Source of the DNA: Craspedostauros australis
Taxonomy: Eukaryota; Bacillariophyta; Bacillariophyceae; Mastogloiales; Achnanthaceae
Reading direction: 5' to 3'
NCBI GenBank assembly: GCA_026770025.1
Contig: JAMXDE010000004.1
Location: forward strand, 992,001-1,056,000
Length of the DNA stretch: 64,000 nucleotides
Shown: positions 16,178-50,178 of the stretch, piece after piece
How positions within the stretch are numbered: position 1 is the first letter of the stretch
How the letters are laid out: each line of letters opens with the position of its first letter
Position numbers and translations under genes: made by a program
The notes under the pieces: generated by a model
Told to the model about the DNA's origin: nothing
What the model saw: only the letters and a program-made list of their open reading frames with translations
Database searches by the model: none

Positions 16178-17196
16178 AATGCTCTTGGACCAATATGTAT
16201 TTTGTTATACATTATTAATAGTACTCTTAGGATGCATCATTCCAGATCCGAACTCGCATCTGCTCGTACTTGTGGCCATCAGCAAGAATGCTCTTCTCTC
16301 TGGAGGAGTATGGAGACCACGCTTCAATGATATGGTATTCTGCATGGTATGATACGAGCTTCAGTACCGCTCTGCTCTAGTCATATGGCATCGGAGAGAG
16401 TATCTTCGTATCACCAGATGAATGCCAACATGTGGCTTTAGCGTCATATAGTAGGTATCCAGTTACCGGCGTGAATCGCAGCCGTTCTTGCCGTGTACTT
16501 AGACTGCCAGCCTTCTCAGGCAACTCCGGTTGCGGAAGTAACCAAGTGAGAGAATACATGTTGATGTGTTGCTGTCTATTGATGCCATCGTCCTATTCTT
16601 GGAAGTGGCTGATTGATGATGAAGGGAAGAGCCCTGGTGGCAGATATCATAGCTGATCTGAACCGGGCAGCATCGTCTGTCGATTTGGGAAAAAGTTGGA
16701 AGTTGCAGAAACTGGAAGTGACAAAGACTCGAAGATGCTCATGGCATGGACGCGCATGCAGGGATGGGTTGCTGCATTCTAGCACAATTGGGATGGTAGG
16801 GTTGGCGAATCCCACATGGCGAATTGTGAAAAGCAACACAAGGTTTCGGATGCATACATCTCGGACACACTATTGCAGACATTCTCAGAGCGATCCGTTT
16901 GCTGGTGCCGCAACTATTACACGCTGGAGTATGTTGGTCCATGCTAATGGTGAGACGGCTTCTTGTCCTGTGTTGTTGCAGAGTATTCATTTGCTAATTT
17001 AGCTTTACTTTGCGTACAATTCGTTGTCACGTTGCTGTTACATAAAATCTGGTCCCCCAAAAGTGTCTCCATCGTGGGAGATAGGGGAACAGGGGTGATC
17101 GATCTGTCCTGTGGCTGTTTGGCTGTCGTGGTAGACGACCTGCCTGATGCACTGCAGATGATGATGAGGCTGATGATGGCGTTCAGCGCAAAGCGC
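16178..17196. other. Spacer between HSF and SIT-A
   Basis: Convergent 3' flanks. No gene is convincing. A 60-codon minus-strand frame at 16377-16559 is identical to one at 28251-28433 in copy B, but the surrounding DNA is equally conserved, so this says nothing about coding. Confidence 0.5.
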
Positions 17197-18843
17197 TTAC
17201 TTCTGCACACCCATCTCTTCATCGCTCTCGCCAACGCTGTCGTTCTCAGCCTGGTTCAGCTTGTCCATGGCAGCAGTCTCCATGCGAAGGGCAGACTCGA
17301 AGACGGCGGCATCCTCCTCGTTGCTGCAGGCGTTGATCTCCTCGCGAAGTCCCTTGATGTTAGACAGGATGCGCTCGCGACGGACGGAGTAAGACTCGTT
17401 CTGTGTGGCCAAGGCCTTCTGGAGCTCGAGGTACTCGCGTGGGACGGCGGTGGAACCGGCCTCACCGACAAGCACGTTGGTTCCCAAGTGCATGTTGCGG
17501 TTGCTCTGGTGGTCTGGCTTCATGCCGGCTGCGCGCTCCTCTGGGGTACCGATGTACACCTCATCGAGCTGGAAGCCAGAGACGGCCTTGTGGATGGAGG
17601 CAAGGACCCAGGCTCCGGAGCAGATACCGGTGGCTTCCAACAACAGACAGAACTGGAGGAAGATGTAGACGATTGGGTTGGAGAGGAAGGCGATTGGGAA
17701 GACGGATGCAACCAGCTGCCATGTGATGGAGGCGATGATGGTGGTGATCAGGGCTCCGAGAAGTCCGGTGTTGAAGAATTCCTGGGTGCTGTCGGAGACT
17801 CCGAAGATGTTCTCGCCGGTTCCGACCTCGACATCGAGGGTGGTGACACGGGCGATGATGAAGAAGCACATGGTCACGCAGATCTGACGCCCGATCATGA
17901 ATCCTGGAAGGTTGCGTCCGTCACCGCGGAAGAGGAGCTCGCAGGTCTTGCGGGCCATTGGGTGGTCTCCACGGTCCTCCTTTGGAAGCTTGGCGACGGC
18001 GAAGAAGGCGATCTGCATACCCTCGAGCATACCGACGATGGACATGAAGAGGAAGAAGAGGATGACGGCGACTCCGTTTGGCACTCCGGCCCACATGGTG
18101 GTCTTTCCATCGAACAGGGCGACGAGGGTGACGGCCATGGCGTAGCACAGGATGGCGAGAGAGATGAGGATGCGGCCCCAGTAGAAGAGGTTCTGGGCAC
18201 CGTCGCGTGGTGGTTCCTTAGACTCAGTTTCCTTGCCTGAGGCCCAGACGAAGAACATCTGGACGAGGTAGCACGAATGCAGAAGTCCGGAGAACTCGAT
18301 GGCGAGGGCGACGTAGAGGGTGAAGACGGCGAAGAAGTTGTTGATGTAGTCAAGCATGCAGAGGGAGGCGTTGACTTGGGAGTTGAGCTGTCCGGCTTGG
18401 GCAGTCATGAGGATCATGGCGGCTCCGGATCCAAGGAAGATCTGGATGATGATGTCTGGGAGTCCGAAGACCTCGGCATCGGCGAGCGGGGCACCGCACT
18501 GGTTGATGGTGAAGACCATGAGGAGGACCATGAACTGACGTCCCATGAGGTAGCGGTCGAGGTTGTCACCCTTGTGGGCGAGGGAGGTGCACTGGTGAGC
18601 GGTTGGGTGGGATTCGACGTAGAGGTCACGGTCGACTGGTGGGAGACCGACGAGGGAACCCTGTCCTCCCTCAACCATGTTGAGCCAGACAAGGGCCGTG
18701 ATCATGACGATCAGGGCAACGGCTGGGTGGACCTCGGACGAGACCTTGGTCTGCTCATTGAAGATGAGTCCGCAGACGATGGTGATCGAGAAGATGAGGA
18801 GTCCGGTGGAGTACACCGACTTGACGAGCTGAACAGGATCCAT
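17197..18843 (-). CDS. SIT: Silicic acid transporter, SIT-A
   Basis: 548 residues from ATG at 18843, one exon. SITs import Si(OH)4, with Na+ in marine species, across the plasma membrane and supply silica deposition. About ten hydrophobic segments can be seen. The two family signatures are present in both halves: EGGQ at 58-61 with GRQ at 101-103, and EGMQ at 274-277 with GRQ at 318-320, which reflects the internal 5+5 repeat of the family. Other family blocks are SQVNASLCMLDYINNFFA and EFSGLLHSCYLVQ. The C-terminal about 80 residues (after 465) are charged and helical, as in the coiled-coil tail of known SITs, ending DEEMGVQK. It differs from SIT-B only at residues 206 (Thr here, Ile there) and 513 (Ala here, Ser there). 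The frame continues open upstream of 18843, but that part is an untranslated leader by its composition. Confidence 0.95.
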   Translation of the reverse strand: MDPVQLVKSVYSTGLLIFSITIVCGLIFNEQTKVSSEVHPAVALIVMITALVWLNMVEGGQGSLVGLPPVDRDLYVESHPTAHQCTSLAHKGDNLDRYLMGRQFMVLLMVFTINQCGAPLADAEVFGLPDIIIQIFLGSGAAMILMTAQAGQLNSQVNASLCMLDYINNFFAVFTLYVALAIEFSGLLHSCYLVQMFFVWASGKETESKEPPRDGAQNLFYWGRILISLAILCYAMAVTLVALFDGKTTMWAGVPNGVAVILFFLFMSIVGMLEGMQIAFFAVAKLPKEDRGDHPMARKTCELLFRGDGRNLPGFMIGRQICVTMCFFIIARVTTLDVEVGTGENIFGVSDSTQEFFNTGLLGALITTIIASITWQLVASVFPIAFLSNPIVYIFLQFCLLLEATGICSGAWVLASIHKAVSGFQLDEVYIGTPEERAAGMKPDHQSNRNMHLGTNVLVGEAGSTAVPREYLELQKALATQNESYSVRRERILSNIKGLREEINACSNEEDAAVFESALRMETAAMDKLNQAENDSVGESDEEMGVQK

Positions 18844-20924
18844 CTTGTTTGTTTGTTCGTTGTTGCTGCTGCTGTTGTGTTGATACCCTGGTTGTTGCTG
18901 TGATTGAGCGTTGCAGAGATTGCAAGATTGTGAGATTGTGAGATGAATGAGGAGTGAAGAGTGGAAGTCGATTTGAGTTGACGATCTTTGTTGGTGTTTG
19001 TGTGTTGTTTGTGTGTTGTGTGTGTGGCGTTTGCGTTGTGGTAGTCCGTTATTGACACCGTCGATACCGTTGACACTGTTGACACGGTTGATGCTGGTGT
19101 TGGAGTTGTGGATGTTCTCGTTGCGGTGGAGTGGAGATGGTGTGGATACCCCACTCCACACTTCTCCAATGTTCCTATTTCTCGGACTACAGCAGAGAAG
19201 ATACTCACCTTTACCTTCGGCGCAACTCGCCTTCACCCATGGTCTGACAGAAAACAAACATGAAACATGAGAGATGAAGCATCAGCGATGGTTTGGCTCC
19301 GCATCTTTGATTTTGGTGGGTTGCGGACTGTCATTGTTGCTGCCACTGTTCTGCCTTTTGATGATCGTCTTCACCTTTGTGACGGAATTTGTGAGTACGG
19401 TTGACTTTGGCGACAGCGTGTCATGCTTTCCAAGATTGACCGGTATGTCGTGCGACATCGTGTCTGACCTAAATGATCGTTGGAGCCAAGATCCCACTAC
19501 TGGGTCGATGTGGTCGAATGAACGTGCACGCTCGTTTGTGGGATCGGTCCTGCTCGGTGTCACGTTTTGAGAGAGCGGAGTGATGCCAATCACAACGGAT
19601 CATCCGCATTGGTTGTTGTGAGAAAGATGTGTTGTCAGCCAAACGGTGATTGTCACGTGTGCGTGCATGCGCGCACTTGCCTTTCGCGCACTGGGGTATG
19701 CATGTGTAACAGTAGCGAGTCGCTGTTGGGCGATGAGTTGTTTGTCCGTTTGTCAGTCTGTCCTTTCTTGTGTTTGTGGTTTGTGTTGTTCCAGATGTGA
19801 CCGTGTAAGTTGGTAGCCAGTTGATCAAATGTGACTGTTGATGAGATGTGGCCGTGGATTGACATGGGCCGTTGATGGAACACGAACAACAACAACAATC
19901 AAACTCAGCAATCGATGGGCAGAATGTGATGGACCAACTCACAGCCGAATAGAGCAATGGAAGAATCAATCGGGCGCTCCCTATGAGATGGCCTCGAAAG
20001 ACATGGTGTTTTCCTTACGATGGTGACTCCCGGTATTGCGGATCACCTCTTCCATCCATTCATCTTGACGCAACAGGTGTTTTGCTGGTGATGTTTGCAT
20101 CTGTCTCAACATATGCTTCTGCCGATCGTCTGCGTCGGGGACAGCACAACCTTGTCGTAGGCGCTGTGATACGACGCCGGAGTTAAAAGAGTCACTGTAT
20201 TGCTTTGCTCGTTCGGATGCTCCGGAGGCGTTCCGACCCCAATTCCGTGATGCGATGCGATGCGATGCTGCTACCAAGTGCATGGACTTGCCAATCCCGA
20301 GAACGCGTAGCTGTTGGTCAATAGCGGAAACAAGAGCGAGGCATACATGCGTGGAACAAGAAGGCAAAGGCGATAACCCGATGCTCCCATCGTCATTCGC
20401 ACAAGGGCAGCGACAGACATCCGCTCACAGCTGTAAAACGACGACGTAGAGCGCGAGATCGTTTGAGCAACGTGTGCAACACGTGAACCGAAACACTGAA
20501 ATGTTGCGACTCTGGCATCGTTTTCGCACCCCGTGCGATGCGTGATGCATGATGCGGTCAGCATCTTGCGACGCCACAGTGATGGATGATCAAAGCGTAT
20601 GAAGCCGAAAGAGGATCGTCGTTTCGAAGTCGCGGCGGGAGCATGAGCACAAGCCTGGCGGCGCAGCGCTGGTGATGGTTTCGCCTTTTGGTTGCGGCGT
20701 GCGATTTTGTGACGACAACAAGTTGTGAATACAACCGTTATAAAACGTTATATTCAAATTATGGAATATCATCAATCGCGGTTTTTGTCTCTCGCTCTTC
20801 TTCCGCCCACCTCTTCAGTCTCTTCTTTCTTGACGGTATGTAGGGCACCATCCTAATTCTACAATTCTACATTTTCGAGTATGATGCTATACCGTATTAT
20901 AAATCAGTGCCTTTTATTCATGCT
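18844..20924. other. SIT-A upstream region and 3' flank of ATPase-A
   Basis: Holds the leader and promoter of SIT-A. From about 18911 to 19466 I find no difference by eye from copy B (36852-37407), a higher conservation than in the coding region. A splice-donor-like AAAG|GTGAGT lies on the minus strand near 19218, so a 5'-untranslated intron is possible. A 98-codon plus-strand frame at 19274-19570 starts with a hydrophobic stretch, but the changes between copies are mostly replacements, so it is probably not coding. The rest shows no gene. Confidence 0.6.
19126..19159. promoter_or_regulatory. 9-bp stem-loop in SIT-A leader
   Basis: Perfect arms GTGGAGTGG (19126-19134) and CCACTCCAC (19151-19159) enclose 16 bases. 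The same structure is present in copy B. It lies about 290-315 bases upstream of the ATG, within the probable transcribed leader. A role in mRNA control is inference only. Confidence 0.45.
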
Positions 20925-23900
20925 CTAGAGGTGTGATACATCAGTAAGCACGGAAACCTCGTCGTCCTCGGCGTCACCAGTGTCGCCATCGTTCCGACGT
21001 TCCAATCCTGTGGGAGGCCTTGGTGATATGTGCGTATCATCGCCGTGTGTCAATGCTTCAGTCGGGGCCGTGTGAACCGAGCTGCTGTGTGCTGATGCCA
21101 TTGTCTTTTGGTTTGCGTAGATCAAGTTGTAGTGGCTGCGGTAATCAAACGTTGGGAGCACCTTGCCTGTGATGGTATTCCGGATGATGCCGGTGCCCGA
21201 GTTGATGACCACCATCTTGTTGCCCTGGTCGCCATTCTGCCTCACATATAGCTTCTCGTTGATGAACTCTCCTCTTTCTTGTTTCAGATGCTCCAGTTTG
21301 AGGACAGCACCCCACTGCCCGTAGTACTCGTAGGAGCGAGTGAACATTTCAACGATGTCACTTTTCCTGCACAGCTTTGCGTTGGCCAGCATGTACTCAC
21401 CTGCCAACTCACACGCCAACGCCGCGTCATGAACGTGTCCGCAGTCAATGGAAGACACGGCGGCATCCTCATACGCTTGCTTCACCTTGTTCAGTTGCTG
21501 TGCTGTCGATGATGCATTCGTGACTGAGAGCAGCTCCGCTCGAAGCAGCAACGAACGGTTGATGCTTGAAAGTCCCTTCTTGCGGCACATCGTTCTGATC
21601 ATCTTCCTCATCTCGTTCAGCCGCTTCATGTACTTCTTCTGCCTTGTTTGACGGTACAGGGCAGCCGCTGTCAGTCCAGTGCACACGACGCGCTGAACCA
21701 CCCTTGCGTAAGAGGTATCGCCAGCCACAACCTTCTTGTGTCTCGTGATGATTGCTTCAGCAATGTCATACTTGTGGAACATGACGCAGAGCTGTAAAAT
21801 TATGGTGAAAGCCATCTGAACTTCGAGACTACCGAGTGAGCTGATGTCGCCAGACTCGCCGAAATCTCTGAACTCTTCCCAATCCACGGCCTCACGACCC
21901 AACAGGACGGATGAAAATCGTATACCTTGCTTGACAAAGCCGGTGGCTGATGAGATCTTGTACAGTCGCATCTGATCGACGAGTTCGGTGTAGGAACGAT
22001 AGATGTCTTGGAGCGGATAGCCTTCGGCCTGCGCAAGGAAGTTGCTTGTCTGCCAGCATGTCAGCGCATCGCTGAAGGTGCCGTGCTCCATGCTGGAGAT
22101 GTAGCATGGGATGTAGCCATTTACGAGAGGTCCTATTGGCTCGCTCCATGGATGAATATAGAGTGCGCAGAGGATATGTGCAATCCCTCTGAGGGATGGA
22201 CTCTTCGTCCTCTTCATGATCTTCACTGAAAGCCTCCCGAACCGCAAGGCGCTTTGTTCGTCTCCCAGCTTTCCCATGAAGAGACCGTAGTTTGCGAATG
22301 CCAAGCCTACATCCTCTGTGATACCATTCTTTTTCGACCAAAGCATGATGCTGAAGGTGGAAAGCAGGAAATGAACGGTATTTTGGCAGAAGAAGCTTCG
22401 GATGGATACCTCGCGGAGAAAGACGAGGGGGAGGATGTCGGTGGAGTTGGTCGCGAGGGGTTGGCACATGATCTCTTCATCCGATACTCGCTTCGCGTAC
22501 CTGCGCACCATCATCATCTTCCTCAGGACGTGCAGCCCGTACGACCCTTTGGGGTAGCTGCGCAGCGACTGGGTCACCTTGCGTCCCAATCGGAGGCTTT
22601 CCTGGTGCCTGTCTTGAGCTCCCAGGGCTTGGATCATGGAGACGTAGGTCGGCAGCTTTTCATTGAGCGTCTTAGCGTGGTCCAACACAGCTTGGCTCAA
22701 TTCGTATCCCAGCTCGTACCGACCCAGCGCCAACTCAATCCTCGCTCTGGATGTATGCAGCCGAAGGTTGAGCTTGTACTGACGATTCCAAGGTTCGCGG
22801 ATCTTCCTCACGGCAGTAGATGCCGATCTGTAGTACACCGAGGCCTGCGCCAGGGCCGCCATGGACAGAGCCAAGTCCCCGGCTTGCAGATTGAGCTTGG
22901 CGATGAAGAGATGATCCTTCGTCGGCACACTGTTCAGGTGATCCGCGGCAACGTACAGCAGCGTCTGATCGATGACTTGGCCGCCCGCGCTTAGCAATGG
23001 GTATGCATTGCTGTTATCATCGTTGTACTCGTCGTCTCCGAGTTCATTAGCGGCGGTCACATCATCAGTATCATCATCCTTATTGATAGTGGAGCGCGTC
23101 GATGGACGGCAGTACTCGAAGAGACACTTGCCGATTCTTGATTTGAGCTTGCAGCGATCCTCCCCGAACGGGACCGACTCGTATGCTGCCTGCTGGATGC
23201 GATCGTGGGCGAAGCAGTACGTGCTGCCTCCGGTAAAATTGGTCAGGAATCCTTGCAGCACGGCCTCCTCCAGAAGATGCTCGAGCTTCTCCGCGGAGAT
23301 GGTTGGCTCAGCTGTCGCGCACGCGTCGTCTCCGAGAGACATGAATGAAGCTGGTTGCGCATTGAGGACCATTCGGAGCGTGGATAGGTCGAATGTGGCG
23401 CGGATGTAAGCGGCACAGGCGAGAGCTGCCTTGAGCTGCGGGGAGAGCCGACTGAGCTTGTGAGACATGAGCTCGACGATGTTCCTTGCGAAAGGCAAGG
23501 CGTAGCTGTCGCTGCCTACGCTCCGGGCACTGCTGGCGCTGCTTCTAGAGGCGTTGCTTTGGGGCCAGTGCCATTCCCACTGGAAGGTGATGTGGCTGTA
23601 CGCAAGAATGTTGGTTTCTTGCAGCTGCTCCACCAGCTGGAGGGTGAAGAAGATGTTTCCCTCCGCACGTCCGTAGATCCTGGACGTGAACGGTTCCAGA
23701 TCCTCGACGGTGCGGTTGAGGAGGATCGAGAGGCACTCCGCAATCTCATGCTTCGTGTGATGAGCCAGCACCAGGTCCGTCCATGGCGAGGACACTTGAT
23801 GTTTGGAAGCAGACGTCTTGGTCGCGGATTCATGTTGAAGGTTGGAGCCTGCTGGCGTGCACAAACTCTCAATCATCTTCCTGAGCGGGTTGTCGTCGTT

Positions 23901-28079: not shown

Positions 28080-28656
28080 TATACACTATCAATAGTACTC
28101 TTAGGATGCATCATTCCAGATCCGAACTCGCATCTGCTCGTACTTGTGGCCATCAGCAAGAATACACTTCTCTCTGGAGGAGTATGGAGACCGCGCTTCA
28201 ATGGTATGGTATTCTGCATGGTATGATACGAGCTTCAGTACCGCTCTGCTCTAGTCGTATGGCATCGGAGAGAGTATCTTCGTATCACCAGATGAATGCC
28301 AACATGTGGCTTTAGCGTCATATAGTAGGTATCCAGTTACCGGCGTGAATCGCAGCCGTTCTTGCCGTGTACTTAGACTGCCAGCCTTCTCAGGCAACTC
28401 CGGTTGCGGAAGTAACCAAGTGAGAGAATACATGTTGATGTGTTGCTGTCTATTGATGCTATCGTCCTATTCTTGGAAGTGGCTGATTGATGATGAAGGG
28501 AAGAGCCCTGGTGGCAGATATCATAGCTGATCTGAACCGGGCAGCATCGTCTGTCGATTTGGGAAAAAGTTGGAAGTTGCAGAAACTGGAAGTGACAAAG
28601 ACTCGAAGATGCTCATGGCATGGACGCGCATGCAGGGATGGGTTGCTACATTCTAG
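28080..28656. repeat. Segmental duplication, copy B, left part
   Basis: Matches 16206-16783 of copy A with few changes. It is cut off at CTAG by the left end of the transposon and resumes at 34721. Confidence 0.95.
28653..28656. repeat. Target site duplication CTAG, left
   Basis: CATTCTAG here is followed by the element; CTAGTACAATTG follows the element on the other side. Copy A has a single CTAG at the same spot (CATTCTAGCACAATTG), which proves a 4-bp duplication on insertion. Confidence 0.93.
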
Positions 28657-28812
28657 GAGCCCCCCGAGTGAGTCGACCTGCACTCCGTTATTGGCCTCCA
28701 GAAATTTTCTCTCCTACATACTAACCAACCACATATTTGTAATCCTTGTAGGTCTAATACAAATAATTAACCGATGGATTTTTGAGTTAGATCCTATTTT
28801 AAGTTTTATGGA
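28657..28812 (+). repeat. Left terminal inverted repeat, 156 bp
   Basis: Outer 38 bp are identical to the complement of 34679-34716. The middle is diverged, and the inner part (AATAATTAACCGATGGATTT onward to TTTTATGGA) is again almost identical. The conserved outer and inner blocks with a diverged centre suggest two binding sites for the transposase. Confidence 0.93.
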
Positions 28813-30488
28813 CCGATGGATATGCGCAATTTTCGATCTCTTTCGGGTTTCAGCCTTTGACAACCGACTACATCGATCCAATTTAACCCTTTGCTGTTCT
28901 TTGTTTCAGCGACATTGTTCTGATTTTGAATTGTTTAGTCTCTTTTTCAGGTGTTCGGATGGGACCACCCAACAGTCCATCCACGATAGCACTAGTTGTG
29001 GAGTTTTGGGAGAAGCGGTGCATGCGCGTTTACATGCATTCAACCATGTGCTCGGCCGATCCGTCATCGACGTCACCCAACTAGATACGTCGTCACGAAA
29101 CACCAATGATATCACGATGCGCAACATCATCAGGTCTGCTTCGTCGTGGCGAAGTGGTTGAGTGGGGTTGGTACTCCTCAAGTGTTTTGTGTTGTGCTCC
29201 TTTCGGAGAGTTACTACAATTGGAGGTAAACCCCCGCATCCCCCAACATGTGAGGCCAGTTGAGAGTGGCAAACTCGACACACCAACATGACAATGGCGC
29301 AACACCAACAAAAATACCACAATGGCCGTCGAACGGTATGCTTGGCGCCGCACCAACCAGCCGGCCAATTCAAGATCCAAGCACATCGCCGTCATCTCCA
29401 CGCAGCGTTTGGTGGGTGGACGAACGGAGGCGGGAAGAGGGGTTGATTTGGGGCCGTCGTAGGCCCCAGAAATACGGCCACAATTTGGCTCCAAATCGGC
29501 TCGTTGGTTTTGGCCTGTGTACGCCACACACAGGTCATATCAGCGCCTACAGATGGGCAAGACGCCTCAGGAAGGGCAAGAAGAAGGCCCCCTCGAAGTT
29601 CGAGGCTCGCAGAGCACCGGGAAGGTCTCCGCGCGGAGAGAAAGGTGGTTTTTGGGAGTTTTGGTTGGGGCTCGCCTGGCACCAGTCGCGTGGCTTTGGC
29701 GGTGAGGGGCGATGGGAAGACGCCCCTCAATCGCCAAGGTACCCATACAAGATGCGTGCGGCATCATTTGAAGATGCACGTCGTGAAGCGTGCGCCACAG
29801 AGACGGTGTACAAGAGGCTGCAGCCGACCATATCTGCAGAATGGTCGTTGTTGGTGGGAGCAAAAAATGCCCAACCACATCATCATATGGAGGTGTACCG
29901 CGTCAGCCATGCACTCCCAGCCCATTCTGGATGCATCTGCCTGTCGCCATGGAGCGTGGTAATGCACGAGGGGCACAAGGAGGGGCTGCAAGGATCGTAT
30001 GGATGAGGTATGGACCCGTATCCATACCGCATCCGGATTGAAAATGATTTTTCGAAATCGCTCTGTTTCAGTGTGTGGCTGCATTGCTGCATGCAGAGCC
30101 GATGTCTGAGGCCAACCTTCATGGAGCGGATAGCTGGGGGGTATGCAGAGCGAATGATCTGATCAGTTTGCTGAAATGCAAGGATGATGATGATGATCAT
30201 GTGTGCTCATTGGAGGGCAACATTGTGCCATCGACCATTTTTTTTTCCGAATCCACCACACAACACACAGGAAACCAACATGACTTCCAAAATATTTTCA
30301 ATACTCATTTAACTTCGATATTCTGATCAACAGATAGCCAGGCGTCTGAGCGCAATGTTTAGTTTTAATTTTAAGCGATGTGTTGTTGAGATATGGCATG
30401 ACAAGCAGATATTGGATGTGCTTTTTGGATGGCCTCTAGACTCGTTTTAGTAGCATGGTCTGCCACCCACAAAACTCCACAACTAGTG
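28813..30488. other. Transposon left interior, no assigned gene
   Basis: No frame is convincing as a gene. A good acceptor (TCTCTTTTTCAG at about 28951) leads into a plus-strand reading DSTSCGVLGEAVHA near 28985. A matching DNTSCGVLWVADHA is coded on the minus strand directly after the transposase stop. The DNA identity between the two is CACTAGTTGTGGAGTTTTG (28990-29008 and 30470-30488, inverted). CGV around a cysteine is the pattern of the catalytic Cys of C48 (Ulp1-like) proteases, which some transposons carry. The part 29440-29760 is richer in G and C than the element ends. Confidence 0.4.
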
Positions 30489-33400
30489 TTATCGCGGCAG
30501 TTCATGCCCATCACAATTTTCCGTCTCATCATCCAACACAGCCTCACTTTCTGCATTGGCCTTCATTGTGTGAGCATCACACCACATCTGATGATTCAGC
30601 TCCTCTTCTTCTCTCTGCAACTCTTCTTCTCTTCGTTCCTCCTCTGTTGCAGCTGGCGCATTGTGGGTCGCCATGATTGCAGATGCTGTTGCTTTGTTTG
30701 TTGGGTTGGTGTTGGTGTTGGTTTCTGCCTTGATGAGGGCAGCCTGCTTCTTTTCTTTGCGTTGTTTGGCGTTGTACGCTGCAGACAGCGATGCTTTCAC
30801 CCGCATGGGATTAGCGTGCAGTTGTACGTACCAGTCAGTTTTCGTTCTTTCGTTGGCCATCAATTGTTCGTGTGCTTCATGTTCGGACGGTCTGTTTTTC
30901 GAGTCCTTCGCGGACGCTTCACTGATGTCCTTCAATTTGTCCGCGATGTAGTCTGGTAGTTTCGCGTTGATCCGTACGGTTTTGCTCGCCCAGCCTGGCA
31001 CTGCGAGTGGTGGGTGTTCGGTTTCTGCGGTCTTGTCCTTCAACTCCGCGGTGCGGTCGGTCGGCACGCATCCTTGTACGTCTTGGATCGCTTTGCCGAA
31101 CACCAGCCCCTTGCTCTCTGCCGCTGTGCGCCCGAGTTTTCGCGTCTTGTCCGTCTTCCTGAACGATTCGGACGTTATCGGCAGCTTGTCGGACTTGTGT
31201 GTGTGAACATCGGCAACGCCCAGCTGGTTGATGATCCAGCCGTCCCATTCAGCGCTCTTCACAACGACGTCTTCCGTGATGCCAGATGCAGCCACCAATC
31301 GCGCCTGGTCATCATCATACTTCACCTCGTGAGTTTGACGCACCTGTTGCCCGTTCGCGCGGAATCGTCGTTTTGGTGCGCCAGGAAGCGTCGTGATGTT
31401 GCCTTCGAGGGTCTCTGCGTTGACCAGTACCGTTGTCGTACCTGCGATGTTACCGGCTTGGAGCGCGAGGAAGAGTTGGAACGGGGTCTTGATGTCCTTG
31501 CCACTTTGCACGTATTTTCGCAGTACACGGGTGATGTACGCGAAGTGGGTGTCCAGCATGCTCTTACCGGTTTGGGCCTCCGTGTAAATCCATGCGATGA
31601 TTTTGGCGGCCTTTCGTGTTGCAAGGTTCTTGTTGAGTACCGATGTGATGAGCGCGATGTGCTCGTGACTGGCGAAACAACACGCGTTATCGCTCTGTAG
31701 GATGATCTCAGTCACGGATGGGTGAATGTCTTTGACCTTTTTTTGCACAATGTCAAGCAGTGCACCAACTTGAAGAGTGTCTTGTGTCGGTCTTCCACCG
31801 ACCACAATGTCAATGAACCGATAAGTAAAAATGTCGTTGCGACACGTGATGACCATCGCCCCAAGCAGTGACATTCCCTTTTTCCCCCAATATTCTTGTT
31901 GGGCTTCGCTTTGGCCTGTTGGTAGAATTTTTTGCTTATGGTCAAGTACCACATAGGCTCTTTCAGGCTTATCATTGAGTTCGGATTGATAAAAAGCGAT
32001 TTGTCGGAATTGCACTTTGGCACGCACTTTGTGAGCCATGTAATTAGTGATTTCATCAGCGAATCCCGGCGCCGCCGCAAGCATTGATTGCAATTCGTCC
32101 TTGTGTTCTGCGAGTTCGTTGTCCTTAAGCATTTCGACGAATGGGACAAAACGATCATTCACAAATCGCATTGCTGATCCACAACGGTTGCATACTTTAC
32201 GCGGTTGTTCGTTTGTTGTGACCACTGGAATGTCATTTGTGATGGTTGGCGTGTCGCTTTTGAGAGTGGTCTTCTTGCGTTTGTGCTTGTTGGTGCGTGC
32301 TTTGCGTTGGTTGGTTGAGGTGGTTGTTGCCTTCTTCTTCTTCTCCTTTTTGGTGGTGAGAGCGAACGCGGCCGAATGCATTGGATCGTCGCACTGAAGC
32401 TGCATGTGGGAGGCGGTGAACTCCCATTTGAGGAACACAACAAGCAGTTCGAGTGCATTCAAGAGGGAATCGGCCGTGCGCACATGTGGAGAGATGACGT
32501 CATTGGGCTCGTCGTTGTCGTTGTCGTTGTCGCTCTCGTCATTGGCATCGTTTTGTTCCTCTCCGTCTGTTTCATACTTAGCCTTCAGGAGGTCTACTAG
32601 GCGCGAAATTGCCTGTTTGAGTTTCTCCGTCGCCATCCAGAAGTAACTCTCGAAGGAAGAAAGGCCCGTCTTGATCTTACTTTTGCGTGTGAGCAGGTTA
32701 GTCATGAGGGTGAATGCAGGCATTCCAACTGGGTTGTTAGTCGTTGACGCGTACATGTCGAATAGTTGTTCGATTGACGTGCTTCCACGATCGAAGACGG
32801 GGACATTTTCAAATTTGATGCCTCCGAACTGTACCGTGTGACTCAGGCCTGCCTTGTACGTAGCGGTGGTCATGAGAAATGATGCCACACCAGACAGATT
32901 GCAAGCACGCACACGATACTGGAGAACCTTTGGCGGGATGAGTTCGCCACGGCTGAACATGTCATAGGCGCGTCGCAATGTTGTTAATTGACTCCGGGTG
33001 ATTGCAGTGCGTGCAGGCTCGACACGAATACGCTGTTCCTCTGACATGGTCTCCAGGTGACGAGAGAGGATTGCGGAGCTGTTAGTGAATGACGTAGATG
33101 CAGCGAGGACAGCTCTAGCTGCGATAGCCAGTGTCTGTTCCCCCCCAACACATAGGGTGTACAGATTTGGACCGAGTGCAGGCGGCGGTAGATCCGCGCG
33201 CGCGCGGACAAACTCCACGACCTGCTGCATCTGGCGTGTTGGCAACTCCTCCTGGGGGAGCAAGACACCCCAGAGCGCAGAAGCCACGTTGACCCACACA
33301 CGTGTTACATTCCACCATGTGTGCCTGTCGCAATTCCAGCCAAGCACGAATCCCTTGGGAGGCATGGAAGTAAACACGTTCATGTCGAAGTGATCCGTGA

Positions 33401-34082
33401 GCAACTCCATCACGCGAATCACAGCAGGGCGCCTCCAGTTCTCCCCCTCTTGCGGATCATACCCGAACTGACCTCCTCTCCTGTTCCTGCTGGCACGCGT
33501 TCCTTCCCCCCTGTCGTTGTCGTCGTAGGTGGTGTCGCTGTCATTGGAGGTGTCTGCATAGCCACCAGCTACAACAGCATTGCAGCGACGAGGGAGCCTC
33601 GCTGGTGGGGCAGGCTCGACAGGTGGTGCAACGTCAGGCACAGCAGGGGGTGGCGCGTTCACGATAACGCTCACCACTGCTCCATCGCCGACACCTCGTC
33701 CCTCGGATCGCACCCTGACGTTGGAGTCGTCGAAGACGCCTCCGTTGTCATCGAGGATGTGAACGAACACATGCAGCACGCGAGCGTGCGCATCCGTACT
33801 GTTCGGGACGAGGCTGCCATCCGCTGCATGCATCGGCTCCACATCAATCACTTGCGTGATGGTGGTTGGCTTCTGGACTGCAGGGGATGGCTTGTCGGGC
33901 AACAGTTGCTCCGCGGTAGGGAGCAAGTTTCCCTTGGAGTCAACAGGAGGAGCAGACACAGGGTAAGCAGAGCGCGGTTTCTTACAGGGGGAGGGGTTGG
34001 CATCCTTGGCCTTGGCGGTGGTGGAGAGAGGCATGTTGTAGTTGTTGGTGTAGGGTATAGTTGATACTTGGTTTGATGTCAT
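30489..34082 (-). CDS. Transposase of the 6-kb element
   Basis: 1,197 residues from ATG at 34082 (MTSNQVS); a second ATG at 34034 (MPLSTTAKAKD) is an alternative start. The upstream extension begins without ATG and runs through CAA repeats. A Cys pair, CNRCGS (from about residue 631), may bind zinc. The catalytic core is likely between 700 and 850: Asp714 in VVLDHKQKILP, then YWGKKGMSLLGAMVI, Asp798 in ILQSDNACCF, and Glu835 in TEAQTGKSMLDTHF, with Asp844 as another candidate. This D-D-E/D spacing fits an RNase H-fold transposase. I have a recollection of similar GK-x-G-x-S and SDNA motifs in Sola transposases; KDZ enzymes should also be compared. Residues 590-620 are Lys/Thr-rich, a possible nuclear signal. 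No internal stop is present, so the protein may be active. The stop lies at the edge of the C48-like motif mentioned for the neighbouring interval. Confidence 0.85.
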   Translation of the reverse strand: MTSNQVSTIPYTNNYNMPLSTTAKAKDANPSPCKKPRSAYPVSAPPVDSKGNLLPTAEQLLPDKPSPAVQKPTTITQVIDVEPMHAADGSLVPNSTDAHARVLHVFVHILDDNGGVFDDSNVRVRSEGRGVGDGAVVSVIVNAPPPAVPDVAPPVEPAPPARLPRRCNAVVAGGYADTSNDSDTTYDDNDRGEGTRASRNRRGGQFGYDPQEGENWRRPAVIRVMELLTDHFDMNVFTSMPPKGFVLGWNCDRHTWWNVTRVWVNVASALWGVLLPQEELPTRQMQQVVEFVRARADLPPPALGPNLYTLCVGGEQTLAIAARAVLAASTSFTNSSAILSRHLETMSEEQRIRVEPARTAITRSQLTTLRRAYDMFSRGELIPPKVLQYRVRACNLSGVASFLMTTATYKAGLSHTVQFGGIKFENVPVFDRGSTSIEQLFDMYASTTNNPVGMPAFTLMTNLLTRKSKIKTGLSSFESYFWMATEKLKQAISRLVDLLKAKYETDGEEQNDANDESDNDNDNDEPNDVISPHVRTADSLLNALELLVVFLKWEFTASHMQLQCDDPMHSAAFALTTKKEKKKKATTTSTNQRKARTNKHKRKKTTLKSDTPTITNDIPVVTTNEQPRKVCNRCGSAMRFVNDRFVPFVEMLKDNELAEHKDELQSMLAAAPGFADEITNYMAHKVRAKVQFRQIAFYQSELNDKPERAYVVLDHKQKILPTGQSEAQQEYWGKKGMSLLGAMVITCRNDIFTYRFIDIVVGGRPTQDTLQVGALLDIVQKKVKDIHPSVTEIILQSDNACCFASHEHIALITSVLNKNLATRKAAKIIAWIYTEAQTGKSMLDTHFAYITRVLRKYVQSGKDIKTPFQLFLALQAGNIAGTTTVLVNAETLEGNITTLPGAPKRRFRANGQQVRQTHEVKYDDDQARLVAASGITEDVVVKSAEWDGWIINQLGVADVHTHKSDKLPITSESFRKTDKTRKLGRTAAESKGLVFGKAIQDVQGCVPTDRTAELKDKTAETEHPPLAVPGWASKTVRINAKLPDYIADKLKDISEASAKDSKNRPSEHEAHEQLMANERTKTDWYVQLHANPMRVKASLSAAYNAKQRKEKKQAALIKAETNTNTNPTNKATASAIMATHNAPAATEEERREEELQREEEELNHQMWCDAHTMKANAESEAVLDDETENCDGHELPR

Positions 34083-34560
34083 GAACTGCACTGGTATGAG
34101 ACGAAGTGACGACGGAGAGCATACAATGCAAGGTCGACCATTTGTTGACAACAACAACAACAACAACTACTACTACTACTACTACTACTACTACACTAAT
34201 AGGGCGAGCACAAGCATGGAACACAACAGCGAGTGCGCATGGCATTGGCGAGGAAAGTTGTGAAATGGAGCGAAAGAGTGGCGATGATTTGCGGAATTGT
34301 GAGCGGATGGCGATGATGTTGGATGTGTGATGTGTTTTGTGTGATGTGTTTTGTGTGATGTGTTTTGTGACGATCAAAATGTGAGATCATGTGGCGCAGG
34401 CTAACGTGTATTTAACGCGTACCAAACGAACGACATTTTCTGCGTCCGGTCCATGACTGACTGCCTCATGATAAATGCATCGGAACAGCATGGAACCTTC
34501 TGAAAAACAACAAGTAGTTTCACGGGGTCGACCCATACGACTTTATCATATTTTTGACTA
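34083..34560. other. Transposase upstream region
   Basis: Contains (CAA)n then (CTA)n at about 34147-34195 and three tandem copies of TGTGATGTGTTTTG at about 34326-34368. These lie between the transposase ATG and the right inverted repeat and should include its promoter. Confidence 0.7.
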
Positions 34561-34716
34561 TCCATAAAACTTAAAATAGGATCTAACTAAAAAATCCATC
34601 GGTTAATTATTTATATGGAGACTACGAGGATTATGAATATGTGCTTGGTTTGGATATCGAAGACAAATTTTATAGATGCCAATAACGGAGTGCAGGTCGA
34701 CTCACTCGGGGGGCTC
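34561..34716 (-). repeat. Right terminal inverted repeat, 156 bp
   Basis: Reverse complement partner of 28657-28812. The last 38 bp (34679-34716) match perfectly. Confidence 0.93.
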
Positions 34717-34720
34717 CTAG
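34717..34720. repeat. Target site duplication CTAG, right
   Basis: Second copy of the CTAG found at 28653-28656. The duplicated block resumes with TACAATTGGGACGG, matching CACAATTGGGATGG in copy A. Confidence 0.93.
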
Positions 34721-35131
34721 TACAATTGGGACGGCAGGGTTGGCGAATCCCACATGGCGAATTGTGAAAAGCAACACAAGGTTTCGGATGCATACATCTC
34801 GGACACACTATTGCAGACATTCCCAGAGCGATCCGTTTGCTGGTGCCGCAACTATTACACGCTGGAGTATGTTGGTCCATGCTAATGGTGAGACGGCTTC
34901 TTGTCCTGTGTTGTTGCAGAGTATTCATTTGCTAATTTAGCTTTACTTTGCGTACAATTCGTTGTCACGTTGCTGTTACATAAAATCTGGTCCCCCAAAA
35001 GTGTCTCCATCGTGGGAGGTAGGGGAAGAGGGGCAATCGATCTGTCGTGTGGCTGTTTGGCTGTCGTGGTAGGTGACCTGCCTGATGCACTGCAGATGAT
35101 GATGATGTCGATGGCGTTCAGCGCAAAGCGC

Positions 35132-36778
35132 TTACTTCTGCACACCCATCTCTTCATCGCTCTCGCCAACGCTGTCGTTCTCAGCCTGGTTCAGCTTGTC
35201 CATGGCAGCAGTCTCCATGCGAAGGGCAGACTCGAAGACGGAGGCATCCTCCTCGTTGCTGCAGGCGTTGATCTCCTCGCGAAGCCCCTTGATGTTAGAC
35301 AGGATGCGCTCGCGACGGACGGAGTAAGACTCGTTCTGTGTGGCCAAGGCCTTCTGGAGCTCGAGGTACTCGCGTGGGACGGCGGTGGAACCGGCCTCAC
35401 CGACAAGCACGTTGGTTCCCAAATGCATGTTGCGGTTGCTCTGGTGGTCTGGCTTCATGCCGGCGGCGCGCTCCTCTGGGGTGCCGATGTACACCTCATC
35501 GAGCTGGAAGCCAGAGACGGCCTTGTGGATGGAGGCAAGGACCCAGGCTCCGGAGCAGATACCGGTGGCTTCCAACAACAGACAGAACTGGAGGAAGATG
35601 TAGACGATTGGGTTGGAGAGGAAGGCGATGGGGAAGACGGATGCAACCAGCTGCCATGTGATGGAGGCGATGATGGTGGTGATCAGGGCTCCGAGAAGTC
35701 CGGTGTTGAAGAATTCCTGGGTGCTGTCGGAGACTCCGAAGATGTTCTCGCCGGTTCCGACCTCGACATCGAGGGTGGTGACGCGGGCGATGATGAAGAA
35801 GCACATGGTCACGCAGATCTGACGTCCGATCATGAATCCTGGAAGGTTGCGTCCGTCACCGCGGAAGAGGAGCTCGCAGGTCTTGCGGGCCATTGGGTGG
35901 TCTCCACGGTCCTCCTTTGGAAGCTTGGCGACGGCGAAGAAGGCGATCTGCATACCCTCGAGCATACCGACGATGGACATGAAGAGGAAGAAGAGGATGA
36001 CGGCGACTCCGTTTGGCACTCCGGCCCACATGGTGGTCTTTCCATCGAACAGGGCGACGAGGGTGACAGCCATGGCGTAGCACAGGATGGCGAGGGAGAT
36101 GAGGATGCGGCCCCAGTAGAAGAGGTTCTGGGCACCGTCGCGTGGTGGTTCCTTGGACTCGATTTCCTTGCCGGAGGCCCAGACGAAGAACATCTGGACG
36201 AGGTAGCACGAATGCAGGAGTCCGGAGAACTCGATGGCGAGGGCGACGTAGAGGGTGAAGACGGCGAAGAAGTTGTTGATGTAGTCAAGCATGCAGAGGG
36301 AGGCGTTGACTTGGGAGTTGAGCTGTCCGGCTTGAGCGGTCATGAGGATCATGGCGGCTCCGGATCCGAGGAAGATCTGGATGATGATGTCTGGGAGTCC
36401 GAAGACCTCGGCATCGGCGAGTGGGGCACCGCACTGGTTGATGGTGAAGACCATGAGGAGGACCATGAACTGACGTCCCATGAGGTAGCGATCGAGGTTG
36501 TCACCCTTGTGGGCGAGGGAGGTGCACTGGTGAGCGGTTGGGTGGGATTCGACGTAGAGGTCACGGTCGACTGGTGGGAGACCGACGAGGGAACCCTGTC
36601 CTCCCTCAACCATGTTGAGCCAGACAAGGGCCGTGATCATGACGATCAGGGCAACGGCTGGGTGGACCTCGGACGAGACCTTGGTCTGCTCATTGAAGAT
36701 GAGTCCGCAGACGATGGTGATCGAGAAGATGAGGAGTCCGGTGGAGTACACCGACTTGACGAGCTGAACGGGATCCAT
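35132..36778 (-). CDS. SIT: Silicic acid transporter, SIT-B
   Basis: 548 residues from ATG at 36778, the same length as SIT-A. By eye the two coding regions differ at about 19 silent positions and two codons: Thr206 to Ile (two bases changed) in the loop after the fifth or so hydrophobic segment, and Ala513 to Ser in the charged tail. All EG-x-Q and GRQ motifs are kept. The excess of silent changes shows that both copies have been under protein-level selection since the duplication, unless conversion has homogenised them. The transposon lies about 410 bases beyond the stop codon, thus in or beyond the 3' untranslated region, and does not break the gene. Confidence 0.95.
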   Translation of the reverse strand: MDPVQLVKSVYSTGLLIFSITIVCGLIFNEQTKVSSEVHPAVALIVMITALVWLNMVEGGQGSLVGLPPVDRDLYVESHPTAHQCTSLAHKGDNLDRYLMGRQFMVLLMVFTINQCGAPLADAEVFGLPDIIIQIFLGSGAAMILMTAQAGQLNSQVNASLCMLDYINNFFAVFTLYVALAIEFSGLLHSCYLVQMFFVWASGKEIESKEPPRDGAQNLFYWGRILISLAILCYAMAVTLVALFDGKTTMWAGVPNGVAVILFFLFMSIVGMLEGMQIAFFAVAKLPKEDRGDHPMARKTCELLFRGDGRNLPGFMIGRQICVTMCFFIIARVTTLDVEVGTGENIFGVSDSTQEFFNTGLLGALITTIIASITWQLVASVFPIAFLSNPIVYIFLQFCLLLEATGICSGAWVLASIHKAVSGFQLDEVYIGTPEERAAGMKPDHQSNRNMHLGTNVLVGEAGSTAVPREYLELQKALATQNESYSVRRERILSNIKGLREEINACSNEEDASVFESALRMETAAMDKLNQAENDSVGESDEEMGVQK

Positions 36779-38885
36779 TTTGCTTGTTTGTTTGTTTGCT
36801 TGTTGTTGTTGTTGATACTCTGGTTGTTGCTGTGATTGAGCGTTGCAGAGATTGCAGAGATTGCAAGATTGTGAGATTGTGAGATGAATGAGGAGTGAAG
36901 AGTGGAAGTCGATTTGAGTTGACGATCTTTGTTGGTGTTTGTGTGTTGTTTGTGTGTTGTGTGTGTGGCGTTTGCGTTGTGGTAGTCCGTTATTGACACC
37001 GTCGATACCGTTGACACTGTTGACACGGTTGATGCTGGTGTTGGAGTTGTGGATGTTCTCGTTGCGGTGGAGTGGAGATGGTGTGGATACCCCACTCCAC
37101 ACTTCTCCAATGTTCCTATTTCTCGGACTACAGCAGAGAAGATACTCACCTTTACCTTCGGCGCAACTCGCCTTCACCCATGGTCTGACAGAAAACAAAC
37201 ATGAAACATGAGAGATGAAGCATCAGCGATGGTTTGGCTCCGCATCTTTGATTTTGGTGGGTTGCGGACTGTCATTGTTGCTGCCACTGTTCTGCCTTTT
37301 GATGATCGTCTTCACCTTTGTGACGGAATTTGTGAGTACGGTTGACTTTGGCGACAGCGTGTCATGCTTTCCAAGATTGACCGGTATGTCGTGCGACATC
37401 GTGTCTGGCCTAAATAGCTGTTGGAGCCAAGATCCCACTACCGGGTCGATATGGTCGAATGAACGTGCTCGCTCGTTTGTGGGATCGGTCCTGCTCGGTG
37501 TCACGTTTTGAGAGAGCGGAGTGATGCCAATCACAACGGATCATCGCATTGTTTGTTGTGAGAAGGATGTGTTGTGAGCCAAACGGTGATTGTCACGTGT
37601 GCGTGCATGCGCGCACTTGCCTTTCGCGCACTGGGGTATGCATGTGTAACAGTAGCGAGTCGCTGTTGGGCGATGAGTTGTCTGTCTGTTTGTCAGTCTG
37701 TCCTTTCTTGTGTTTGTGGTTTGTGTTGTTCCAGATGTGACCGTGTAAGTTGGTAGCCAGTTGATCAAATGTGACTGTTGATGAGATGTGGCCGTGGATT
37801 GAAATGGGCCGTTGATGGAACACGAACAACAACAACAACAACAACAACAACAATCAAACTCAGCAATCGATGGGCAGAATGTGATGGACCAACTCACAGC
37901 CGAATAGAGTAATGGAAGAATCAATCGGGCGATCCTGATGAGATGGCCTCGAAAGACATGGTATTTCCTTTCTGATGGTGACTCCCGGTATTGCGGATCA
38001 CCTCTTCCATCCATTCATCTTGACGCAACAGGTGTGTTGCCTCGTGATGCTTGCATCTGTCTCGACAAGTGCTTCCGCCGATCGTCTGCGTTTGGGGCAG
38101 CACAACCTTGTCGTAGGCGCTGTGATACGACGCCGGAGTTAAAAGAGTCACTGTATTGCTTTGCTCGTTCGGATGCTCCGGAGGCGTTCCGACCCCAATT
38201 CCGTGATGCGATGCGATGCTGCTACCAAGTGCATGGACTTGCCAAGCCTCACCGATCCCGAGAACGCGTAGCTGTTGGTCAATAGCGGATACAAGAGCGA
38301 GGCATACATGCGTGGAACAAGAAGGCAAAGGCGATAACCCGATGCTCCCATCGTCATTCGCACAAGGGCAGCGACAGACATCCGCTCACAGCTGTAAAAC
38401 GACGACGTAGAGCGCGAGATCGTTTGAGCAACGTGTGCAACACGTGAACCGAAACACTGAAATGTTGCGACTCTGGCATCGTTTTCGCACCCCGTGCGAT
38501 GCGTGATGCATGATGCGGTCAGCATCTTGCGACGCCACAGTGATGGATGATCAAAGCGTATGAAGCCGAAAGAGGATCGTCGTTTCGAAGTCGCGGCGGG
38601 AGCATGAGCACAAGCCTGGCGGCGCAGCGCTGGTGATGGTTTCGCCTTTTGGTTGCGGCGTGCGATTTTGTGACGGCGACAAGTTGTGGATAGAACCGTT
38701 ATAAAACGTTATATTCAAATTATGGAATATCATCAAGCGCAGTTTTGTCTCTCGCTCTTCTTCCGCCCACCTCTCTCGTCTCCTCTTTCTTGACGGTATG
38801 CAGGGCAGCATCCTAATTCTACAATTCTACATTTTCGAGTATGATGCTATACCGTATTATAAATCAGCGCGTTTCATTCATGCTC
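36779..38885. other. SIT-B upstream region and spacer
   Basis: Equivalent of 18844-20924. The proximal part, 36852-37407, shows no difference from copy A by eye. The distal part (37420-38700) has scattered changes and small indels. No gene is convincing. Confidence 0.6.
37067..37100. promoter_or_regulatory. 9-bp stem-loop in SIT-B leader
   Basis: Same GTGGAGTGG/CCACTCCAC arms and 16-base loop as in SIT-A at 19126-19159, at the same distance from the start codon. Confidence 0.45.
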
Positions 38886-39118
38886 TAGAGGTGCGATACG
38901 TCAGTCAGCACGGACACCTCGTCGTCCTCGGCGCCACCAATGTCGCCATCGTTCCGACGTTCAAATTCTGTGGGAGGCCTTGGTGATATGTGCGTATCAT
39001 CGCCGTGTGTCAATGCTTCAGTGGGTGTTGTGTGAACCGAGCTGCTGTGTACTGCACGACTACTCTGACATTGTCTTTTAGTTTGCGTGGATCAAGTTGT
39101 ACTGGCTGCAGAAATCAA
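38886..39118 (-). pseudogene. Decayed 3' stub of ATPase-A
   Basis: Matches the last about 75 codons of ATPase-A (20925-21150). The final codons (VLTDVSHL and stop) are kept, but upstream there is a nonsense change (the CAA of ANQKT is TAA here, plus-strand TTA at 39078-39080) and a short insertion that shifts the frame near 39045-39065. There is no ATPase domain or promoter, so this is a by-product of the duplication. Confidence 0.88.
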
Positions 39119-39119
39119 A

Positions 39120-49423: not shown

Positions 49424-50178
49424 ATATCCATAATGACGTTTTTCTTGCGTCCGGACGCATTCTCTACGTAGCTTGCGTCCGGACGCAAATTGAACGCTCA
49501 GTTTGCGTCCGGACGCAAATTGGGCCAATTTGCGTGGGGACGCAAATGCAAGCTCGCCGAAAATACCACTTGTACTACTTAAGTCCCATGTTCCTCCACG
49601 ATGTCCCGTGTTGCAGAAAAAAAAAACCGATTTCGGTCCGAAACCCGAAAGTGGGTTGTTTTTTTTTCTGACTCCTTCGAGTAACACATTTATTTGGCGA
49701 TTTAAAAAAAAAAAACCTCGCGATGCAGCACGGCGTCATTGGTCATGTCTCAGGGGTTCCTTTCCGTGCGCCTGACTTGCTTTTCTGACGTCATGGGATC
49801 TGAGGTAATGAGCTTTTACTTTTTGATTTCGATGTCATCCACCACGCTCCTGACAACAACACCAAAATCCTGGCAACGGTGTAACACAACAAGGAGGGTG
49901 GAGCACGAATCATGATTATTGTTTGTTCAATTACCACAACTGCAGCGATTATTATAGAACTAAGACATGAGTCATGTCGTGAGTCGAGATGGCCAGCGAA
50001 AAAGGGTTTGAAAAAAAAAACGGCTTCTCATAAAGCGTATTTGGGCGAGTCCGTTGAGTCGCCGCTTGCGTCCGGACGCAAATTGGCCCAATTTGCGTGG
50101 GGACGCAAACTGAGCGTCCAATTTGCGTCCGGACGCAAGCTACGTAGGCCAGTACCAGGCCAAAATCATTATGGATAT
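49424..50178. mobile_element. 755-bp non-autonomous fold-back element
   Basis: Outer inverted ends ATATCCATAATGA (49424-49436) and its complement (50166-50178). Inner arms of about 82 bp (49465-49546 and the complement of 50066-50146) begin CTACGTAGCTTGCGTCC. The arms are made of perfect 16-bp palindromes TTGCGTCCGGACGCAA at 49473, 49503, 50066 and 50123, a 15/16 copy at 49445, and variants with GGGG in the centre at 49529 and 50092. The centre has A and T runs and no gene. No target duplication is clear. The left end lies 243 bases upstream of the aspartyl protease ATG, so it may touch that promoter. Confidence 0.8.

Follow-up and report, generated by a model that had tools for sequence, protein, structure and literature searches.

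Transposons of the Sola superfamily are described (PMC10741241) as generating 4-bp target-site duplications, encoding a DDD transposase, carrying inverted repeats of 11 to 1124 bp, and usually measuring 2 to 9 kb. Dictyostelid Sola2 elements, according to a second source (PMC3627910), have 12- to 21-bp repeats and AWWT duplications, including ATAT, AAAT, and ATTT. Canonical Kolobok elements are TTAA specific, their ends follow RR...YY, and their protein has a C/DxxH motif between the second Asp and the last acidic residue; the same source (PMC9587614) reports Kolobok from a diatom and a KolobokP lineage with 3- to 5-bp duplications of no strong specificity. For piggyBac, published descriptions give 5'-CC..GG-3' ends, alongside 1- to 4-bp duplications in PHIS, the PIF/Harbinger superfamily and its relatives (PMC10045372), and one piggyBac element reported to duplicate TTAA as well as ATAA (PMC8634313). 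The element described here lies in a 64,000-nucleotide stretch (the window) of the genome of Craspedostauros australis (assembly GCA_026770025.1, contig JAMXDE010000004.1, positions 992,001 to 1,056,000). It is very likely an autonomous cut-and-paste diatom DNA transposon that duplicates the target word NTAN and encodes a single large transposase, a module of which may have been swapped between subfamilies.

The ends of the element can be read directly from the window (Table 1). The insertion splits one copy of a duplicated block: positions 16206-21149 match 28080-28656 plus 34717-39119, with 98.4% identity over the 577 bp to the left of the insertion and 96.3% over the 4.4 kb to its right. 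The 6,060-bp element has CTAG on either side, and the other copy of the block retains a single CTAG at the corresponding, unfilled place. This paralogous empty site bears out the first-pass annotation, which had described a complete DNA transposon with terminal inverted repeats (TIRs) and ends proven within the window. The TIRs are 156 bp long, as stated there, and ∼88% identical, but their perfect outer run is 39 bp rather than 38 bp. The transposase frame of 1,197 residues was likewise correctly reported as intact, since it runs from its first ATG to its stop codon (30492-34082, stop at 30489-30491) with no internal stop.

Target-site choice was examined in the whole assembly (74.8 Mb in 90 contigs), from which 20 stretches around other copies, plus short pieces of more, were sampled. 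Both ends were scored in 24 copies, the window copy included. In each of these, the two 4-bp flanks match one another and read NTAN, so the 4-bp length of the duplication claimed earlier stands. Nineteen of these copies were chosen regardless of their flanks; the remaining five were drawn from termini preceded by TAN, and for them flank equality, not the NTAN form, is the independent evidence. The 24 leave out the composite copy L027, and L013, L014, L022, L023, and a second copy in each of L017, L020, and L026 have a single end. NTAN also precedes all 10 additional single ends (L037 to L046). Across the genome, the exact terminus GAGCCCNNNNAGTGAGTCGACC occurs 215 times, a count that excludes variant termini such as those of L056 to L058, and TAN precedes 213 of these occurrences; TA makes up 2.6% of the dinucleotides in the window. 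One of the two non-TAN exceptions was inspected and has flanks CTAT and CAAT, a single-base difference of the kind that ageing would leave in a duplication. The element thus targets a TA step flanked by one unconstrained base on either side.

These counts overturn the earlier view of CTAG as the target. The duplication differs from CTAG in 19 of the 24 scored copies, and the genome-wide check of whether every insertion duplicates this word gave CTAG before only 15 of the 215 exact termini (TTAA precedes 21). A CTAG-specific transposon is ruled out by this contrast with the 213 TAN-preceded termini, and the argument that a palindromic CTAG target sets the element apart from the TTAA, TA, and TWA families falls with it, CTAG being merely one instance of NTAN seen in a sample of one. 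The copy that goes against the duplication rule is L027, whose flanks, GTAT and CTAG, are unequal because it abuts a truncated inverted copy. This arrangement of a full and a truncated copy (L026/L027, G000 C1:2668996-2678967) perhaps reflects an aberrant transposition, or else a nested insertion followed by a deletion.

The family is numerous, and many of its copies are nearly identical. The left repeat has at least 42 matches in the genome, its own place included (the best 40 of 296 candidates were scored), and a chance origin is excluded by its occurrence in at least 41 other places. For the transposase protein, at least 38 matches were found, all with E=0 and 26 of the 38 without a stop (the best 38 of 579 candidates were scored); both counts are lower bounds. 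Typing 99 of the 213 TAN-preceded termini gave at least 31 pairs spanning 6,008 to 6,110 bp, under a 5.5- to 6.6-kb filter that would hide short derivatives. From the 215 exact termini, we infer about 100 copies, if not more. Only 2 alignment positions distinguish L009 from L010, which occupy separate target sites; between the window copy and L009 there are 49 differing positions, 45 of them within the stretch 344-653. Such near-identical copies at different targets point to recent movement, and the family has apparently been active recently. The window insertion is probably younger than the block duplication, because the flanks differ by 1.6 to 3.7% and the element differs from L009 at only those 49 alignment positions.

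The transposase frame is under purifying selection: dN/dS (the ratio of nonsynonymous to synonymous divergence) is 0.21 to 0.33 in eight copy pairs and rises to 0.45 in L024-L025, the most similar pair. Open frames of 1,170 to 1,197 residues, 80 to 100% identical, were present in 15 of the 19 copies inspected, and L013, L015, L022, and L023 have none. The native start may be Met17, which would give a protein of 1,181 residues, because 10 of the 15 open copies have their first ATG 16 codons further in. The conserved C631-x-x-C634 pair is possibly metal binding. Within the pair L024-L025, residues 992-1066 have a synonymous divergence (dS) of 0.45, compared with 0.00 to 0.07 in the remaining bins, and L025 resembles L019 in this segment; this mosaic suggests recombination between subfamilies.

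Unexpectedly, the subfamilies differ in the ends of the element, and with them in one part of the transposase. The outer 35 to 57 bp are identical at both ends in 23 of the 24 copies (in L015, the identity breaks at position 9), and between subfamilies this outer sequence varies at bp 7-10 and bp 23-37. In type B copies, the left repeat past bp ∼37 is like that of the window copy, and its outer 37 bp are the same as those of the copy's own right end, so the two ends came to match each other regardless of the sequence around them. The divergent part of the protein, residues 205-392, is a candidate end-recognition (DNA-binding) module. When L018 (type B) is set against L016, L019, and the window copy, residues 242-391 have dS of 1.1 to 2.7, although NG86 values above about 1 are unreliable as numbers; the other bins of these three pairs lie between 0.04 and 0.90, mostly below 0.4.

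Among 21 copies (excluding the near-identical L009 to L011, L021, and L027, as well as L022 with a split match and L059 with no match), the modules fall into 8 clusters of members at most 5% apart, each with one sequence at bp 23-37. Over the 210 pairs of these copies, which are non-independent, module distance correlates with end distance (Spearman rho 0.85), as does the distance in the neighboring residues 60-195 (0.77); the partial correlations are 0.66 for the module given the neighbor and 0.42 for the neighbor given the module. With one representative per cluster (n=8), the Mantel rho between module and ends is 0.73 (permutation p 0.012), and that between residues 60-195 and ends is 0.45 (p 0.07). 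This pattern suggests that residues 205-392 recognize the ends and were exchanged together with them.

The unreliability of the high dS values already tells against such an exchange, and two further points do so as well: type A ends, those of the window copy, are common to two module clusters 16 to 18% apart, and the ends and the module are also co-inherited, so that part of their covariation is shared descent. Shared descent of whole lineages might even be the full explanation, with no exchange of a recognition domain. Copies within one module cluster are indeed close relatives overall, and the correlation of residues 60-195 with the ends is as this explanation would have it. It is nevertheless a rather unlikely account, given that module dS exceeds that of every other bin in all three type B pairs, that the type B left repeat is window-like inside bp ∼38 and matches its own right end outside it, and that the partial correlations favor the module over its neighbor. 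Module exchange is the preferred interpretation. In L056, the first part of residues 205-392 is type B-like and the later part type A-like, and the end sequence looks mixed as well. This copy might reveal which half of the module reads which bases.

Candidate catalytic residues lie farther along the protein. The first-pass annotation had proposed D714, D798, and E835, all of which do stand at these positions, but the third of them is doubtful and D844 is the likelier candidate. E835 and D844 are equally invariant in the open copies. In an AlphaFold model of residues 625-900 built from the window sequence alone, D714 is two residues past a strand (708-712), D798 directly follows a later one (793-797), and a helix spanning 843-859 has D844 near its start, as its second residue. 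This order of strands and helices suits an RNase H-like core, and the triad D714/D798/D844 is preferred. The poor quality of the model (mean predicted local distance difference test score [pLDDT] of 39.3, predicted template modeling score [pTM] of 0.25) counts against this reading, as do the absence of a fifth strand, which an RNase H fold should have, the placement of E835 inside a helix, the further helix after 843-859, and the Asn that replaces D798 in 3 of the 15 open copies (L024, L027, and L028). L024 and L028 occupy different targets, GTAA and ATAA. If D798 is catalytic, the Asn798 copies would have been mobilized in trans by intact copies or would have changed later in a shared ancestor.

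In the proposed mechanism, the likely end-binding module (residues 205-392) would bind the outer ∼37 bp common to both ends, and residues ∼700-860, with D714/D798/D844, would probably form an RNase H-like catalytic core. The transposase would cut and paste the element, not copy it: after excision, the two strands of the target would be attacked at points four bases apart, centered on a TA step, with the result that each insertion duplicates NTAN. On this reading, the element works like Sola-type transposons.

The anatomy of the element fits Sola best among the groups compared. As in the description of that superfamily (PMC10741241), the duplication is 4 bp, the repeats are of variable length (156 bp in the window copy), and the length is several kilobases (6,060 bp, with paired copies of similar size); the acidic-triad transposase has its possible counterpart in D714 and E835 or D844, invariant in the 15 open copies, and D798, retained in 12, as placed on a poor model. 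The difference lies in the TA center found at nearly every terminus. Sola-like is a fair lead. True membership, with the element as a diatom lineage of Sola that targets NTAN, has close to even prospects. It gains from the agreement with the published ranges of duplication, length, and repeats, from three conserved acidic residues compatible with DDD, and from ATAT among the listed Sola2 words (PMC3627910), which is also an NTAN word; it loses from AAAT and ATTT in the same source, which violate the TA rule kept here at 213 of 215 termini.

A relationship to Kolobok, with its RR...YY ends and a 4-bp TA-containing target, is very improbable. The GA...TC ends of the element and the TTAA that precedes some of its termini agree with it, as do the diatom Kolobok and the weakly specific KolobokP of the published account (PMC9587614). 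In that source, however, canonical members are TTAA specific, and TTAA is a minority word here; the C/DxxH motif is also absent from residues 798-850. The element shares with piggyBac/IS1380 the 4-bp duplication and a non-TTAA target on record (ATAA, PMC8634313), but has GAG...CTC ends instead of the CC..GG of the published description (PMC10045372) and gave no match to the Pfam piggyBac model up to E=10. Tc1/mariner elements also have TA in the target, whereas the duplication here is always 4 bp and not TA. PHIS elements have duplications of 1 to 4 bp in the source cited above, and no Pfam transposase model appeared for this protein. At least one tested feature goes against Kolobok, and likewise against piggyBac; none of those tested does so for Sola.

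Searches for relatives gave no transposase model in Pfam or NCBIfam up to E=10 for the whole frame or its parts (three parts in the case of Pfam). Five further queries, other copies or parts of them, likewise gave none in Pfam at a cutoff of E=1. Pfam did recognize retroelement frames from this genome, but the controls included no DNA transposon. The only profile matches were weak, unrelated, and below curated cutoffs, the best being Amidase_3 (E=0.02) in the C-terminal part. No relative was found among Protein Data Bank (PDB) chains or in a phage collection, among plasmids (queried with residues 633-870 only), among prokaryote contigs (residues 700-870 only), or among viral contigs (whole frame, an 8-copy alignment, and residues 700-870); the two contig scans require exact short peptides and so reach close relatives only. 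The motif DNAGCY/FH, which occurs in uncharacterized animal proteins with a similar core, had no match in the genome itself. A narrower form of it matched one viral contig, which does not resemble the core (best E value, 5). No description of the element was found in the open-licence literature, surveyed mostly as listings. No homologue of known function was found, which speaks against the functional reading, and for this reason the label "transposase" rests on anatomy and selection.

Pfam covers KDZ, MULE, hAT, PIF/Harbinger, CACTA, and Tc1; to our knowledge, it has no model for Sola, Academ, or Novosib, so the absent matches are weak evidence for a separate lineage. A DDE/D lineage of eukaryotic transposons outside every named superfamily would accord with these empty profile searches, and with an NTAN target and GAG...CTC ends that mismatch those given for canonical piggyBac and Kolobok in the sources cited. 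This placement is rather unlikely. More doubtful still is a bolder form, in which a separate NTAN DDE/D lineage diversifies into subfamilies by cassette exchange, the recognition domain moving together with the outer ∼37 bp and the second end then being rewritten.

The surroundings of the element identify its host. Each copy of the duplicated block encodes a 548-residue frame that matches the silicon transporter family (PF03842; E=7.2e-249 for the gene next to the element), and the element inserted 415 bp past the stop codon of one of them; the earlier attribution to a diatom is supported by these frames. Plus-strand frames of 360 and 579 residues overlap the silicon transporter frames on the opposite strand. 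Within the element, the left interior is 71 to 80% identical to that of L019, L018, and L020 across most of its length and, between some subfamilies, is more divergent than most of the transposase frame. A second gene there was considered and rejected, as frames of at least 220 codons are lacking in some copies (e.g., L025 and L028).

Some terminus pairs are 11 to 15 kb apart. One of these, L023 (C24, TTAA at both ends), contains a copia-type retroelement with gag and pol domains, and the interrupted copy L013, with one end located, carries a reverse transcriptase frame. The long pairs are taken as nested insertions, read directly among them in L023, and not as larger related elements. Elsewhere in the window, a 684-bp inverted-repeat unit (49464-50147) with 82-bp arms that are 94% complementary contains TTGCGTCCGGACGCAA repeats and looks like a separate small foldback or unit resembling a miniature inverted-repeat transposable element (MITE).

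Table 1. Positions of the transposon, its parts, and associated features in the window
Feature	Position	Strand	Remark
Complete transposon, 6,060 bp	28657..34716	minus	Strand is that of the transposase frame
Left target-site duplication, CTAG	28653..28656		NTAN instance
Right target-site duplication, CTAG	34717..34720		
Unfilled CTAG target	16779..16782		Paralogous block copy
Left TIR, 156 bp	28657..28812	plus	Outer 39 bp (28657-28695) same as right end
Right TIR, 156 bp	34561..34716	minus	Outer 39 bp (34678-34716) same as left end
Left interior	28813..30488		Plus-strand frames of at least 220 codons in some copies only
Transposase frame, 1,197 residues plus stop	30489..34082	minus	Open reading frame
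Divergent module, residues 205-392	32907..33470	minus	Candidate end-recognition (DNA-binding) domain; putative role
C631-x-x-C634 motif	32181..32192	minus	Both Cys in 15/15 open copies
D714, candidate first catalytic acid	31941..31943	minus	Asp in 15/15 open copies; weak model
D798, candidate second catalytic acid	31689..31691	minus	Asp in 12/15 open copies; weak model
D844, preferred candidate third catalytic acid	31551..31553	minus	Asp in 15/15 open copies; weak model
E835, third acid of the first-pass annotation	31578..31580	minus	Glu in 15/15 open copies
Silicon transporter frames, 548 residues	17197-18843 and 35132-36778		Duplicated block

The terminal sequence that stays constant, taken with the NTAN rule, is a precise marker by which insertions of this family can be found and classified, and the near-identical open-frame copies at different sites indicate recent activity. 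A single genome with a natural series of transposase modules, each matched to its own ends, would allow a direct study of how specificity changes jointly in protein and DNA. If cassette exchange is the true mode of diversification, each swap would create a new end specificity, and the subfamilies would stop mobilizing each other.

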